Positions 29,206-33,634 of a stretch of DNA of 64,000 bases are shown piece by piece. The stretch comes from Nibricoccus aquaticus (GTDB lineage: Bacteria; Verrucomicrobiota; Verrucomicrobiia; Opitutales; Opitutaceae), in the NCBI RefSeq assembly GCF_002310495.1, contig NZ_CP023344.1, forward strand, positions 248,001 to 312,000. Direction: 5' to 3'. The position numbers and the translations under genes were made by a program. The notes beneath the pieces were generated by a model. That model worked only from the letters and a program-made list of their open reading frames with translations, ran no database searches and was not told the origin of the DNA. How positions within the stretch are numbered: position 1 is the first letter of the stretch; the number at the start of each line of letters is the position of its first letter.

Positions 29206-30744
29206 TCAGTCGTCGCGCCTCTGTAAACGCGCCTTCACCGTCCGCCGATCCAGATCGAGCCGCCGCGCCGTCTCTTCAATCGTCCCCGCCTGATCGAAAA
29301 CGATCCGCGTGTAACGCCGCATCAACTCCTCCGCCGTCAGCGCCCCGCCCTCGATTACCGCATTCCAATCATCCGCCACCCTCCGCACCAACGGCCCCGC
29401 CGGCCGATACTCGCCACGCAGAATCAAGTTGCGCACGCACTGCTCCAGCTCACGGAAATTCCCCGGCCACGCGTAACTCGCGCCAAGATTCTTCTCTATC
29501 CACGTCACCGCCTCATCCGCGAAATCCTCCGCTTCCACTCCACCCAACAGCCGCTTCGCGATGTACGTGACCATTGTCGGCAAATCCCCCGGCGCCGCAT
29601 CGAGCTGATCGCGCAGTCCCGGCGTCGCGATCTGGTCCGAGCAAAGCCGATAATAAAAATCCTCGCGAAACCTCCCCGCCCGAATCTCGCCCGGCAAATC
29701 GCGATTGGTCGCCGCGAGCACTTTCCCCTCAAACCGCCGCGACTCCGTGCCGCCCAGCGGCTGAAACGTCCGCGCCTGCAACACGCGCAACAACTTCACC
29801 TGAATTCCCGTATCCGTTTCGCCGATCTCATCGAGGAACACCGCGCCCGTCGGTGGACACTCCTCCATCCAGCCCGCCCGGTCCGCCAGCGCTCCGGTAA
29901 ACGCCCCGCGCTTATGACCAAACAGCTCCGACTCGATCAGCGTCGGCGACAACGCCGCCAGATTCAGTGCGAAAAAACCATGCGCAAAATCCCGCCCAAA
30001 CCCGCCGCGCTTCGGCTCGTACGGAATGTACCGCGATAGCGCCAGCGCCCGCGCCACCAGTTCCTTGCCCGTGCCCGATGGTCCCGTGATCAACGTCGCG
30101 AAATCCCCAAGTCGCGAAAACAGCCCACGCCGGTAGCGCCGCAGATCGTGCGTGAAAATCGACTGCCAGATCTCCGCCCGCAGCCGCGCCATCGACGGCG
30201 ACGAGCCGACCAGCGAGCGGAAGATATTATGAAACGCCCGGCGGATCTGAAACGCGCACGCGAACCAGTGCGCCGGCTCCGCGCCTTCGATCCGCTCCGC
30301 TCCAAACACCGAAAAGCACTTCTCCACGTCCGCCTTGAACGCCGGGAAAAACTCCACACGCCCGCCCTCCCCTCGCCCATCGAGCGCCGTAAGAATCACG
30401 CGGTCAAAACGCACCGCATACGTCTGATAGAGCCAGTAGCCCGCGATCTCCTCATACAACGCAGCCTCCTCACGCGTCGGCCTCGCGCCGCCCGCCGACG
30501 CCTTCACCGCCCGGTCGATCAACTCGCCGCACCGCGCCGTGATCGCGCTCACATTAACGTGCGACTCCGCCGTCGGCGGCCGCGTATTCCACGCCGCGCC
30601 CGCCTCGACGAAGTCCGCGCCCAACGCCTCCCGCTCCGCCGCGATGCGCTCCGGCAAAAACGGATTCGCCGCATTCACACGACCGATCGCTTTCGCGAAA
30701 TTTCGATCCGCTGTCGAAAACCATGCTTTGCTCGATGTCGTCAT
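29206..30744 (-). CDS. sigma-54-dependent transcriptional activator with an orphan N-terminal domain
   Basis: 512 residues. The AAA+ domain has Walker A GPSGTGKE (221-228), ESELFGHKRGAFTGA with the sigma-54-contacting GAFTGA at 280-285, Walker B AVFLDEIGE (301-309) and the arginine-finger region. Between Walker A and GAFTGA it is about 12 residues longer than NtrC-type proteins. A Fis-type helix-turn-helix is at about 485-510. The first 165 residues match no receiver, GAF, PAS or V4R domain that I recognise and probably sense the signal. It is divergent from the VIT/VWA gene, with 159 bases between start codons, and is its best candidate regulator. Confidence 0.9.
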   Translation of the reverse strand: MTTSSKAWFSTADRNFAKAIGRVNAANPFLPERIAAEREALGADFVEAGAAWNTRPPTAESHVNVSAITARCGELIDRAVKASAGGARPTREEAALYEEIAGYWLYQTYAVRFDRVILTALDGRGEGGRVEFFPAFKADVEKCFSVFGAERIEGAEPAHWFACAFQIRRAFHNIFRSLVGSSPSMARLRAEIWQSIFTHDLRRYRRGLFSRLGDFATLITGPSGTGKELVARALALSRYIPYEPKRGGFGRDFAHGFFALNLAALSPTLIESELFGHKRGAFTGALADRAGWMEECPPTGAVFLDEIGETDTGIQVKLLRVLQARTFQPLGGTESRRFEGKVLAATNRDLPGEIRAGRFREDFYYRLCSDQIATPGLRDQLDAAPGDLPTMVTYIAKRLLGGVEAEDFADEAVTWIEKNLGASYAWPGNFRELEQCVRNLILRGEYRPAGPLVRRVADDWNAVIEGGALTAEELMRRYTRIVFDQAGTIEETARRLDLDRRTVKARLQRRDD

Positions 30745-30852: not shown

Positions 30853-30868
30853 TGGCGCGCCTCCAGCA
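30853..30868 (+). promoter_or_regulatory. candidate sigma-54 (-24/-12) promoter
   Basis: TGGCGCGCCTCCAGCA fits the TGGCAC-N5-TTGCA consensus at the invariant GG and GC with their exact 10-base spacing; the TT of the -12 box is replaced by CA. Transcription would start about 25 bases before the VIT/VWA start codon. The neighbouring gene codes a sigma-54 activator, which supports the call. Confidence 0.5.
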
Positions 30869-30903: not shown

Positions 30904-32934
30904 ATGAAACTAAAATCCATCCTCCTAAGCGCAGTCGTCGTCTGGACGTTGCTCGCCGTCTCAGTTTTCGCCGGCGGCACACTCACGCCCACCGGCTCCG
31001 CCCAACAGCCGATCAAGATCCGCGACCATCAGGTCAACGTCACCATCAACAACGGCTTCGCCCAAACCGAAGTCCTCCAGACGTTCTTCAACCCCAACGG
31101 TACCGACCTCGAAGCCATCTACGCCTTCCCCGTTCCGAAAAGCGCCAGTCTCTCCGAAGTCACCATCACGACCGGCGAGAAAACGCTGAACGGCGAAGTT
31201 CTTCCCAAGAAGGACGCCGAGACCATCTACGAAGAGGAAAAGAAATCCGGCAACGATGCCGGCATAGCCAAAAAGAACAGCTTCCTCACCTACGAATTCC
31301 GCGTCGCTCCCGTGCGCGCCAACTCCGAGGTGAAACTGCGCTTCGTTTATTTCCAGCCACTCGAAATCGACACCGGCGTCGGCCGCTACGTTTACCCACT
31401 CGAAGAAGGTGGCACCGACGATGTCGCGAAAAGTTTCTGGACCACGAACTCCCAGGTCGAAGGCGCGCTCTCGATCAACGTGGAACTCAAATCCGCCTGG
31501 CCCGTCTCCGATGTGCGCGTGCCCGGATTCGAAGGCGCGGCTAACTCCCAGAAACTCGCCGAGGGTCACTACAAGCTCACGCTCGACCGCCCCGGCGCGA
31601 AACTCGATCGCGACTTCGTCTTCTACTACCGCCTCGCCGAAAACGTCCCGGGCCGCGTCGAAGTTATTCCGTATCGGGCATCCAAAGACAAACCCGGTAC
31701 CTTCATGATGGTCGTCACGCCCGGCGTTGACCTGAAGCCGATCACCACCGGCGCCGACTACGTGTACGTCCTCGACGTCTCCGGGTCGATGCAGGGCAAA
31801 ATCCACACGCTCGCCAACGGCGTCAGCCAGGCGCTCGGCACGATGCGCCCCGAAGACCGCTTCCGCATTGTCACCTTCAACAACTCAGCTCGCGAGGTTC
31901 TCGACTGGACGCCTGCCACGCCGGAGAACGTGCAGTCCGCCATCGCCCTCGTGAAATCCCTCCAGCCCAGCGGCGGCACCGATGTTTACGCGGGCCTCAA
32001 AACCGCCACCGAGAAACTCGATGCCGACCGCGCCACCAGCATCGTGCTCGTCACCGATGGCGTGACCAACCAGGGCATCGTCGATTCCGCGTCCTTCCAC
32101 AAACTGCTCAAGCAATACGACGTCCGCGTCTTCGGCTTTCTCATGGGCAACAGCGCCAACTGGCCGCTCATGCGCGTCATCGCCGACGCCACCGGCGGTT
32201 TCTATGCCGGCGTAAGCAACGACGACGACATCGTCGGCCAGATCCTGCTCGCGAAATCGAAGATCACCTTCGAGTCGATGCACGACGCCTCGTTCAAGTT
32301 CAGCGGTGCCCGCGTTTTCGATACGACCGGCGACATGCCGAACAAAATCTACCGCGGCCAGCAGCTCGTGATTTTCGGCCGCTACGAAGGCTCGGGCAAA
32401 GCGACGGTCGCGCTCAAGGCAAAGCTCACCGGCGAAGACAAAACCTACACCACGACCTTCGACTTCCCCGAGACCGACACCGACAATCCCGAGATCGAAC
32501 GCCTCTGGGCCATGGCCCAGATCGAGCAAATCGAACTCAAGGAAAACACCGGCCAGCTCCCGCCCAGCGAATCGAAAGACGCGATCCAGAATCTCGGCGT
32601 CGCCTACCAACTCGTCACCGATCACACCTCGATGGTCGTCCTCGATGACCAGACCTTCGCCAAACGCGGCATCGCGCGGAACAACCAGCAACGCATCGCC
32701 ACCGAACGCACCGCGCAAAGCGTCCGCGCCCAGCAGGCCCCGAAAAACTATCAGGTCGATGCGAACCAGCCGACGTACACCGCGCCCGCTCCCCACGTCA
32801 GCCGCGGTGGCGGCGGAGGTGGCGGCGCCATCGATGGCGGCACGCTCGCCGTGATGCTCGTCGTCTTTCTCGCGGCCGCCGCGCTCTACGCCCGCAAGCA
32901 TATGAGCCGGTGCTCGCGTCAGAAAAAGGACTGA
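30904..32934 (+). CDS. VIT and VWA domain surface protein with GlyGly-CTERM-like tail
   Basis: 676 residues. A signal peptide (about 1-23) is followed by a VIT domain (about 30-150), a VWA domain with the metal site DVSGSMQG (291-298) and SGGTDVYAG and TDGVTN motifs, and a beta-rich region. The end is three-part: seven glycines in a row (about 635-641), a hydrophobic helix (about 647-663) and a basic tail. That matches the GlyGly-CTERM sorting signal, the known substrate tag of rhombosortase, and a rhombosortase-like gene follows. VIT-VWA proteins bind partners in a metal-dependent way on the surface. The ATG at 30904 gives the signal peptide. Confidence 0.9.
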   Translation: MKLKSILLSAVVVWTLLAVSVFAGGTLTPTGSAQQPIKIRDHQVNVTINNGFAQTEVLQTFFNPNGTDLEAIYAFPVPKSASLSEVTITTGEKTLNGEVLPKKDAETIYEEEKKSGNDAGIAKKNSFLTYEFRVAPVRANSEVKLRFVYFQPLEIDTGVGRYVYPLEEGGTDDVAKSFWTTNSQVEGALSINVELKSAWPVSDVRVPGFEGAANSQKLAEGHYKLTLDRPGAKLDRDFVFYYRLAENVPGRVEVIPYRASKDKPGTFMMVVTPGVDLKPITTGADYVYVLDVSGSMQGKIHTLANGVSQALGTMRPEDRFRIVTFNNSAREVLDWTPATPENVQSAIALVKSLQPSGGTDVYAGLKTATEKLDADRATSIVLVTDGVTNQGIVDSASFHKLLKQYDVRVFGFLMGNSANWPLMRVIADATGGFYAGVSNDDDIVGQILLAKSKITFESMHDASFKFSGARVFDTTGDMPNKIYRGQQLVIFGRYEGSGKATVALKAKLTGEDKTYTTTFDFPETDTDNPEIERLWAMAQIEQIELKENTGQLPPSESKDAIQNLGVAYQLVTDHTSMVVLDDQTFAKRGIARNNQQRIATERTAQSVRAQQAPKNYQVDANQPTYTAPAPHVSRGGGGGGGAIDGGTLAVMLVVFLAAAALYARKHMSRCSRQKKD

Positions 32935-32955
32935 GTGCAGTTGGGAAATCCGTCC

Positions 32956-32987
32956 AACCGGGCGGCTGCGCAAGCAGCCTCCCGGTT
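32956..32987 (+). terminator. strong hairpin between the VIT/VWA and rhombosortase genes
   Basis: AACCGGG/CCCGGTT plus GGCTGC/GCAGCC stack around a GCAA tetraloop, followed by TTTCC. The T-run is short, so it may act as a partial terminator or transcript stabiliser that lowers rhombosortase expression relative to its substrate. Confidence 0.6.
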
Positions 32988-33007
32988 TCCTCAAACACCT
33001 TCATTCG

Positions 33008-33634
33008 ATGAAACGATTTCCGTTCCTTACTTTGCTTTTTGGAGCTGTAGCCGTGGCTACTCATGCGATCCCCGGAATGACCGAGGCGCTGCAGTTTGAT
33101 CGGAGCGCGTTCAGCCGGGGCGAAGTCTGGCGGTTGATCACCGGGCATTTCACTCACTTCGGCGCGGATCATCTGCGGTGGGATGTGATCGCGTTTGTCG
33201 CGTTTGGATCGCTGGTGGAGTTTCGTTCGCGGCGGGCGTGGATCTATTGCGTGGCGATCAGCGCGGTCGTGATTTCGTTCGGCGTGAGCTGGCTCCAACC
33301 GCAGTTCACGCTCTATCGCGGGCTATCTGGATTGGATTCGGCGTTATTCGCGTTTGTCGCCACGGATCTGGTACGTGAGGGGCGGCGCTCGAAGGACAAA
33401 CTCATGATCGGGCTCGGGGCGCTCGCGCTGAGCGGGTTTCTCGCGAAGTGCGTTTATGAACTCGTCAGCGGGCGCACGTTGTTCGTTGAGACGGGCGATG
33501 CGTTTCAGCCGGTGCCGCTCGCGCATTTGCTCGGTGCGGTGATCGGCGTGCTCACGGCGCAAGAATGGAAGAACCGGCGAGCAGCAGTTGCTCGCACTGA
33601 GGAAACCCAATCGCCGCTGGGCTCGGGACTTTGA
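33008..33634 (+). CDS. rrtA: rhombosortase-like intramembrane serine protease
   Basis: 208 residues, rhomboid superfamily, with about six membrane helices. TGHFTHFGADHLRWD (46-59) matches the His-rich segment of rhombosortases. The catalytic serine is Ser107 in YRGLSGLDSA and the partner His173 in PLAHLLGA. Short length and these motifs fit rhombosortase better than a general rhomboid. It would cut the Gly-run tail of the upstream VIT/VWA protein, 73 bases away. Its coding strand is G-rich with many GCG and GTG codons, unlike the C-rich coding strands of its neighbours, a possible sign of separate origin. Confidence 0.82.
   Translation: MKRFPFLTLLFGAVAVATHAIPGMTEALQFDRSAFSRGEVWRLITGHFTHFGADHLRWDVIAFVAFGSLVEFRSRRAWIYCVAISAVVISFGVSWLQPQFTLYRGLSGLDSALFAFVATDLVREGRRSKDKLMIGLGALALSGFLAKCVYELVSGRTLFVETGDAFQPVPLAHLLGAVIGVLTAQEWKNRRAAVARTEETQSPLGSGL

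Follow-up and report, generated by a model that had tools for sequence, protein, structure and literature searches.

The 64,000-nucleotide stretch of the Nibricoccus aquaticus genome analysed here (contig NZ_CP023344.1, positions 248,001 to 312,000; hereafter the window) carries a gene for a predicted secreted protein with VIT and VWA domains, followed 73 bases downstream by a gene for a rhomboid-type intramembrane protease, and preceded by a divergent gene for a sigma-54 activator (Table 1). The initial annotation, made from the sequence alone, read the first two genes as a one-substrate/one-protease pair, consisting of a rhombosortase and a protein with a GlyGly-CTERM-like tail. From sequence comparison and analogy with a characterised system, we consider it likely that the two form a dedicated C-terminal sorting pair, in which the rhombosortase would serve the VIT/VWA protein by way of a private tail, with lipid anchoring as the proposed outcome.

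Table 1. Genes and sequence features of the locus (positions within the window)
Feature	Positions	Strand	Basis
VIT/VWA protein, predicted secreted, 676 residues	30904..32934	+	signal-like segment, VIT domain, VWA domain with DVSGSM
Putative C-terminal sorting tail: Gly x7, Ala-Ile-Asp, membrane helix, basic end	32806..32931	+	hydropathy, tail model A2
Class A rhombosortase, 208 residues, Ser107/His173, motif YRGLSGLDS	33008..33634	+	TIGR03902 120.6 bits; AlphaFold2 (AF2) model and Foldseek match to GlpG
Divergent sigma-54 activator, 512 residues, GAFTGA, all-helical N-terminal domain (1-210)	29206..30744	-	NCBIfam, Pfam, AF2
Candidate -24/-12 sigma-54 promoter TGGCGCGCCTCCAGCA, GG-N10-GC, 9/12 consensus positions	30853..30868	+	-24/-12 consensus

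The top NCBIfam match of the protease is the rhombosortase family TIGR03902 (120.6 bits, cut-off 84), against only 34 bits for the GlpG model TIGR04239 (cut-off 250), and on this basis we rejected the possibility that it is an ordinary rhomboid; Pfam assigns it to Rhomboid. The AF2 model, built on 24 aligned sequences (mean predicted local distance difference test score, pLDDT, 93.9), has six helices of at least 15 residues, and its best solved matches, by Foldseek and likewise by sequence, are GlpG structures. The catalytic serine lies in transmembrane helix (TM) 4 and the histidine in TM6 of this predicted GlpG fold, with the rhombosortase motifs WRxxS/T in L1 (WRLIT) and AHxxGxxxG in TM6 (AHLLGAVIG). 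The His-rich segment TGHFTH...H singled out in the initial annotation comprises His47, His50 and His55, and its account of a six-helix protease with Ser107 and His173 likewise holds. These two catalytic residues are invariant in all 24 aligned sequences (the window's included) and in all 81 sequences from a public scan for proteases of the same type (class A, defined below), where the scan pattern YRGLSG[LI]Dx[AG] makes invariance within the motif (Ser107, Asp110) circular; Lys147, Glu151, His50, His55 and His173 are also invariant among the 81 and lie outside the pattern. Position +4 after the active serine, a free letter of the pattern, is Ser111 in the window protease, at the position of GlpG Tyr205, and among the 81 sequences it is S in 43, T in 27, C in 5, M in 4, A in 2 and His in none. 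According to Haft and Varghese (2011; PMC3237569), who defined rhombosortase and GlyGly-CTERM, His replaces Tyr205 in 'virtually all' rhombosortases. Our Shewanella and Aeromonas references have His at +4 and those from Cupriavidus and Variovorax have Tyr; since the latter also score over the cut-off, as all four references do, TIGR03902 does not require His at this position. Judged by model score and predicted GlpG-like fold, the window protease is a rhombosortase.

In the VIT/VWA protein, Pfam recognises VIT (94.4 bits) and VWA, the DVSGSM motif beginning at residue 291. Hydropathy, on which alone the signal peptide and helices were called, gives a single signal-like segment at residues 6-24 and a single C-terminal membrane segment at residues 643-661, with none in between at the threshold used. 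Residues 635-641 are all Gly and a basic tail follows the membrane segment, just as initially described. The protein thus has the GlyGly-CTERM layout - Gly motif, helix, basic C-terminal cluster, signal peptide and no other helix - and to this extent the tail is GlyGly-CTERM-like. The curated model is another matter: TIGR03501 (cut-off 15.5 bits) reports neither the window tail nor seven further class A tails (eight scanned in all) up to a limit of E 10, within which the HMMER filters nonetheless remove most matches above about 0.1. We therefore rejected the tail as GlyGly-CTERM proper. Its helix is also not of the Leu-rich kind: 70 class A helices contain 25% Ala, 19% Leu and 13% Gly, compared with 34% Leu and 13% Gly given for GlyGly-CTERM in PMC3237569. 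MYXO-CTERM (TIGR03901) is characterised by Cys in its signature motif; the Gly motif of the window tail has none, its sole Cys sitting in the basic end, and Cys occurs anywhere among the last 45 residues in 12 of the 70 class A tails. The window tail has two weak NCBIfam matches, to NF006248 (15.8 bits, cut-off 92) and NF053725 (6.1 bits, cut-off 24), which were taken as chance. What class A tails share is a G-run, Ala, Ile/Leu, usually Asp and then the helix; the residue after the hydrophobic position behind the Gly motif is Asp in 49 and Glu in 3 of 70.

In the single 4.73-Mb contig of the N. aquaticus genome, two proteins exceed the TIGR03902 cut-off: the window protease and a second, encoded at 2.278 Mb. 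The second rhombosortase gene is convergent to that of an 812-residue immunoglobulin (Ig)/pectate-lyase protein ending GGGSPSAWFLGALAFVCGARAITRRRTS. A model of this tail type (A1, from six class C tails including that of the 812-residue protein itself) matches ten proteins of the genome, that one among them, at E 1.1e-5 or better; every match lies no more than about 30 bases from the frame end, and the class C consensus reads GGG[AS]PSxWF. The ten proteins are presumed to be secreted, and all three class C proteins scanned by Pfam have Ig-like domains; TIGR03501 gives two of three scanned class C tails 9.1 and 14.4 bits, below its cut-off, and leaves the third unreported. The corresponding class A model (A2, from nine tails, the window's included) finds the VIT/VWA tail once, at E 5.8e-21, with the next match in the genome at E 0.10, and A1 gives no report for the VIT/VWA tail at E up to 10. 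The proposal of one substrate for one protease is thus supported for the window pair, whose tail a search of its own genome finds nowhere else at better than E 0.10, and not for the genome as a whole, which has a second rhombosortase and ten further tails. A tail type present once in the genome, with the two genes side by side in relatives, fits a dedicated pair.

Own-genome frames of about 2000 to 3300 residues with a class C tail lie at G000:C1:1653373, 1674233, 1712305, 2015029 and 1672666. There is also a second VIT/VWA protein in the genome (G000:C1:2477906-2479093, locus L079), which ends in TTPEPGT and a helix and by eye is PEP-CTERM-like; with the limit at E 0.1, NCBIfam gives no PEP_CTERM match for it. 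Paralogs similar to it occur in the relatives G004, G007, G009, G012, G028 and G033.

For comparison we used 57 genomes, that of the window and those of 56 relatives. TIGR03902 scores over its cut-off in 24 of these, with 29 matches altogether, and by their neighbours the 29 proteases form three groups: A with VIT/VWA proteins, B with the rhombotarget lipoprotein (TIGR04179; 251 to 394 bits for the three targets scanned whole) and C with GGG[AS]PSxWF tails. For seven of the 29 (L037_7612, L043, L045, L047, L053, L054 and L056), the neighbour scan showed no target of the same class, and sequence decided their group; L043 adjoins a different Gly tail and L056 has a VIT/VWA neighbour whose reading frame runs on. 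The class B pair is present in nine Opitutales relatives. In the best 30-row tree, B and C each occupy one side of a branch; class A requires two changes and forms one side in 27% of bootstrap trees. A 60-row tree was labelled by neighbour type, leaving 7 rows without a label and giving the four proteobacterial references one of their own; it accommodates all labels with 4 changes, against a mean of 17.9 when they are shuffled. The classes differ at position +4 after the serine and at residue 147, which is Lys in A and B and Glu in C.

Tails and proteases are distributed together. Class C tails (E up to 0.001) are found in eight of the 57 genomes and in none of the other 49, and the same eight are the ones whose class C protease exceeds the cut-off; four of the eight supplied seeds for the tail model and the other four are independent of it. 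Close orthologs of the VIT/VWA protein (over 400 bits) are present in 11 genomes, and ten of them adjoin a class A protease, the eleventh (in G025) being cut by a contig end. Below E 1e-11 the class A tail matches are the nine seeds themselves, and the VIT/VWA tail of G007 is matched at E 4.7e-5. In G003, which has the class B lipoprotein pair, the search for close VIT/VWA orthologs gave none. Statistically, then, the rhombosortase groups of this order associate with different target types. In G014, tandem rhombosortases, a class C followed by a class B-like enzyme, lie downstream of class C-tail proteins (L037, 7567-8879).

A held-out set was taken from a draw of 240 genomes of the host phylum, of which 22 score over the TIGR03902 cut-off and 27 match at E up to 1e-20. 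It comprised 20 of 23 new matches, from 15 previously unused genomes, each in a stretch of 12-13 kb; class was assigned by the best of three group models, target models were run afterwards, and adjacency meant within 630 bases of the protease match. The predicted target adjoins the protease at 18 of 20 loci and a target of another class is present in none of the 20 stretches. Broken down by predicted class, VIT/VWA adjoins in 10/10 cases for A, the rhombotarget lipoprotein in 4/5 for B and the class C tail in 4/5 for C. The class A loci include two below the TIGR03902 cut-off (L209 and L210) and one, L205, whose class A score is just 1 bit over that for class B. One genome (G166) has three rhombosortases, two predicted as B and one as C, the B copy L191 being without an adjoining target. 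L205-L207 are divergent rhombosortases beside VIT/VWA proteins, and the clean tails among them (L205, L206) read GTGPVGPLF..., with the Gly run reduced.

The VIT/VWA pairing extends well beyond the order. When a collection of species genomes was scanned with the class A alignment, 143 related places came up; the loci described here are the best 80 of these. A VIT/VWA gene lies upstream on the same strand at 70 of the 72 loci with at least 500 bases upstream, the remaining eight loci being at contig edges. The gap to the protease has a median of 101 bases, is within 200 at 56 loci and is at most 888. Because 70 of 72 public loci have VIT/VWA upstream within 900 bases, chance pairing is very unlikely, and the co-occurrence one would look for in relatives if the initial proposal were right is seen here as well as among the close orthologs. 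By title, the loci are mostly from Planctomycetota and Verrucomicrobiota, with single loci from Lentisphaerae, Desulfobulbaceae, Deltaproteobacteria, Elusimicrobia, Binatia, Paceibacterota and Nealsonbacteria; most are metagenome-assembled genomes, whose bins can be wrong. Some loci are not independent of the sets above: L103, L106 and L144 are the same contigs as G002, G009 and G028, and L145 shares its contig with held-out L203. Four proteases from the scan were scored with TIGR03902; three pass (106.5, 108.6 and 134.2 bits) and L167 fails (79.8). Two loci from Opitutaceae close to Ereboglobus (L104, 3478-4713; L105, 1893-3620) look like a natural target switch within class A.

Pfam identifies a Sigma54_activat domain (149.3 bits) in the divergent activator, which scores below every NCBIfam cut-off; its GAFTGA loop is present in 35 of 45 homologs (window included). 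The N-terminal domain has a confident all-helical model (pLDDT 91.7), no Pfam match, and no match to a solved structure better than E 1.6. An activator homolog lies directly upstream and divergent at 49 of the 74 class A loci where the upstream sequence spans 1700 bases or more; a fiftieth, L130, was missed by the start rule. The activator stands beside the pair at one of 28 class B and C loci. That locus (L059, 3963-5498, minus strand), in another family of the order, has the same activator type upstream of a lipoprotein/class B pair. Homologs of the N-terminal domain occur in all ten class A genomes (in seven of them beside the pair) against 7 of 47 others; by sequence, the domain is associated with class A and not exclusive to it.

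The candidate promoter TGGCGCGCCTCCAGCA ends 35 bases ahead of the VIT/VWA start codon. We scanned fixed 320-base stretches from 48 non-redundant loci for -24/-12 sites, with dinucleotide shuffles and the reverse strand as controls. Sites scoring at least 11/12 are present at 14 of the 48 loci, against none on the reverse strand and a shuffle mean of 0.05; at a threshold of at least 9/12 the figures are 27, 1 and 3.13. A search of the intergenic stretch of the window for inverted repeats of at least 8 bases, as sites for the activator, found none; it contains one direct repeat of 10 bases. The divergent activator probably switches the pair on from a sigma-54 promoter in many relatives, and here, to judge from these sequence patterns.

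Taken together, these observations suggest the following model. The VIT/VWA protein would be exported by means of its signal peptide, with the C-terminal helix retaining it in the inner membrane, and the class A rhombosortase, with Ser107 and His173, would cut the tail at or close to its Gly run. VesB of Vibrio cholerae is cut by rhombosortase at its GlyGly motif and gains a glycerophosphoethanolamine-containing group (PMC6219818); on this analogy, the new C-terminus may be joined to a lipid, and the protein may then be displayed on the surface of the cell as a VWA protein of adhesin-like type. Tail and protease appear to form a private subfamily, from which it would follow that the window protease serves the VIT/VWA protein; in parallel, the second rhombosortase may serve the ten proteins with GGG[AS]PSxWF tails. 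The divergent activator would switch the pair on from the sigma-54 promoter. The case for pairing and for class specificity is a statistical one.

Several observations weigh against this model. Besides the silence of TIGR03501 on class A tails, Ser or Thr (here Ser) usually takes the place of the near-universal His beside the active serine of rhombosortases. Own-genome tails are among the seeds of both tail models, 13 weak class A tail matches (E 4.2e-5 to 0.008) lie elsewhere in nine relatives, and the class A tail search in the larger genomes scored only 121 first-look candidates. A class C tail adjoins just four of the eight class C proteases. Two frames share the VIT/VWA match in G009, and in G007 (L056/L069) the VIT/VWA frame extends about 120 residues beyond the Gly tail and helix, which suggests a gene fusion or a lost stop. 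The held-out class A proteases L205-L207 score only 50-60 bits and are without the YxGLS motif searched for. At L104 and L105 a class A protease stands beside a rhombotarget lipoprotein with no VIT/VWA protein, so the pairing can switch. The divergent-activator rule is not satisfied at 25 of 74 class A loci, and the best -24/-12 site in the window reaches only 9/12. As to a link with type II secretion, secretin matches stay below the cut-off, the best reaching 273.6 bits against 351.35 for GspD.

Cleavage need not lead to anchoring. The protease might cut the VIT/VWA tail and simply hydrolyse it, so that the protein is shed or released; in V. cholerae, VesB cut by GlpG is released in soluble form (PMC11389362), and neither an anchoring enzyme nor a lipid acceptor can be read from sequence. 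The tripartite tail is, however, the layout of anchoring systems, and we consider release unlikely. Somewhat less probable still is that processing is not private at all, both rhombosortases cutting both tail types and adjacency reflecting co-expression only. Gly, helix and basic parts are common to all the tails, the motifs of VesA, VesC and VC1485 can stand in for that of VesB in V. cholerae (PMC13393428), and the class A proteases of L104 and L105 have a different target. Yet the class C model misses the VIT/VWA tail, class C tails reach no better than E 0.1 with the class A model, and classes and targets co-segregate across many genomes, among them genomes that have two or three rhombosortases.

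Rhomboids can act in quality control, and the divergent activator and the sigma-54 sites found across loci could be taken to mean that the protease is stress-induced and clears the VIT/VWA protein when the activator senses the relevant conditions. The conserved Gly tail is instead a sorting signature, and the closeness of protease and target on one strand, with the median gap of 101 bases, makes it probable that they are induced together, which also counts against removal; we regard this explanation as very improbable. Between these alternatives, we favour dedicated sorting of the VIT/VWA protein by the class A rhombosortase.

Part of this picture is already known. PMC3237569 lists Opitutus terrae (Verrucomicrobia) as having a dedicated adjacent pair, describes VIT/VWA homologs with GlyGly-CTERM, PEP-CTERM or LPXTG ends, and gives one species with two rhombosortases, Cupriavidus metallidurans, with one target beside each. 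The initial annotation needs correction on this point, both a verrucomicrobial dedicated pair and VIT/VWA proteins with such tails having been published in 2011. Literature searches combining GlyGly-CTERM with Planctomycet or Verrucomicrob, and rhombosortase with PEP-CTERM and Opitut, found this paper alone, and searches combining rhombosortase with 'VIT domain' or 'sigma54' found none. Our observations go further in the second rhombosortase with another tail, the three target groups, the wide VIT/VWA pairing and the sigma-54 activator upstream. We lean, with moderate confidence, towards a broader view, in which Verrucomicrobiota rhombosortases have split into coexisting private enzyme-tail codes within one cell (for a single VIT/VWA surface protein, for a set of often large Ig-like proteins and for a lipoprotein), the VIT/VWA code being an ancient and widespread three-gene module of the PVC (Planctomycetes, Verrucomicrobia, Chlamydiae) group, with its own sigma-54 activator, which would carry an undescribed sensor domain.

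How rhomboids choose their substrates is a long-standing question. Nature provides specificity experiments in those genomes where two or three rhombosortases each seem to be matched to a short tail of their own, and the residues that differ between classes (+4; Lys147 versus Glu) offer direct targets. The wide conservation of the VIT/VWA module with its activator points to a regulated system at the cell surface of Planctomycetota and Verrucomicrobiota, of which we found no description beyond the 2011 paper.

Among known systems, the window pair resembles rhombosortase/GlyGly-CTERM in its score over the cut-off, Ser/His dyad, WRxxT and AHxxGxxxG motifs, adjacent target and tripartite tail; it differs in a tail that TIGR03501 does not report and in Ser at the His/Tyr205 position. 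Unlike the two rhombosortases of C. metallidurans, one enzyme here is apparently private and the other is matched to ten proteins. The rhombotarget lipoprotein pair (TIGR04179) likewise has a dedicated target directly upstream of a rhombosortase, but the target is unrelated, its tail is of the KPGYTGGG type and its protease belongs to a distinct group. VIT/VWA proteins with the marine sortase (TIGR03788) or a PEP-CTERM tail are of the same family and also have a removable C-terminal anchor, though their tails and enzymes (sortase, exosortase) are different; with TIGR03788 the window protein reaches 226.5 bits, below the cut-off of 551.65. Sigma-54 regulators of PEP-CTERM/exosortase systems were reportedly described by Haft in 2006, and these (TIGR02915, 'PEP-CTERM-box response regulator') offer a parallel for a sorting system apparently under sigma-54 control; there the protease is of another family, and the N-terminal domain of the window activator has no Pfam match. 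VesB and RssP of V. cholerae share with the window pair an intramembrane Ser/His rhomboid and a Gly-containing C-terminal tail, and differ in having several targets per protease and another tail consensus; they are the experimental model for the mechanism proposed here.

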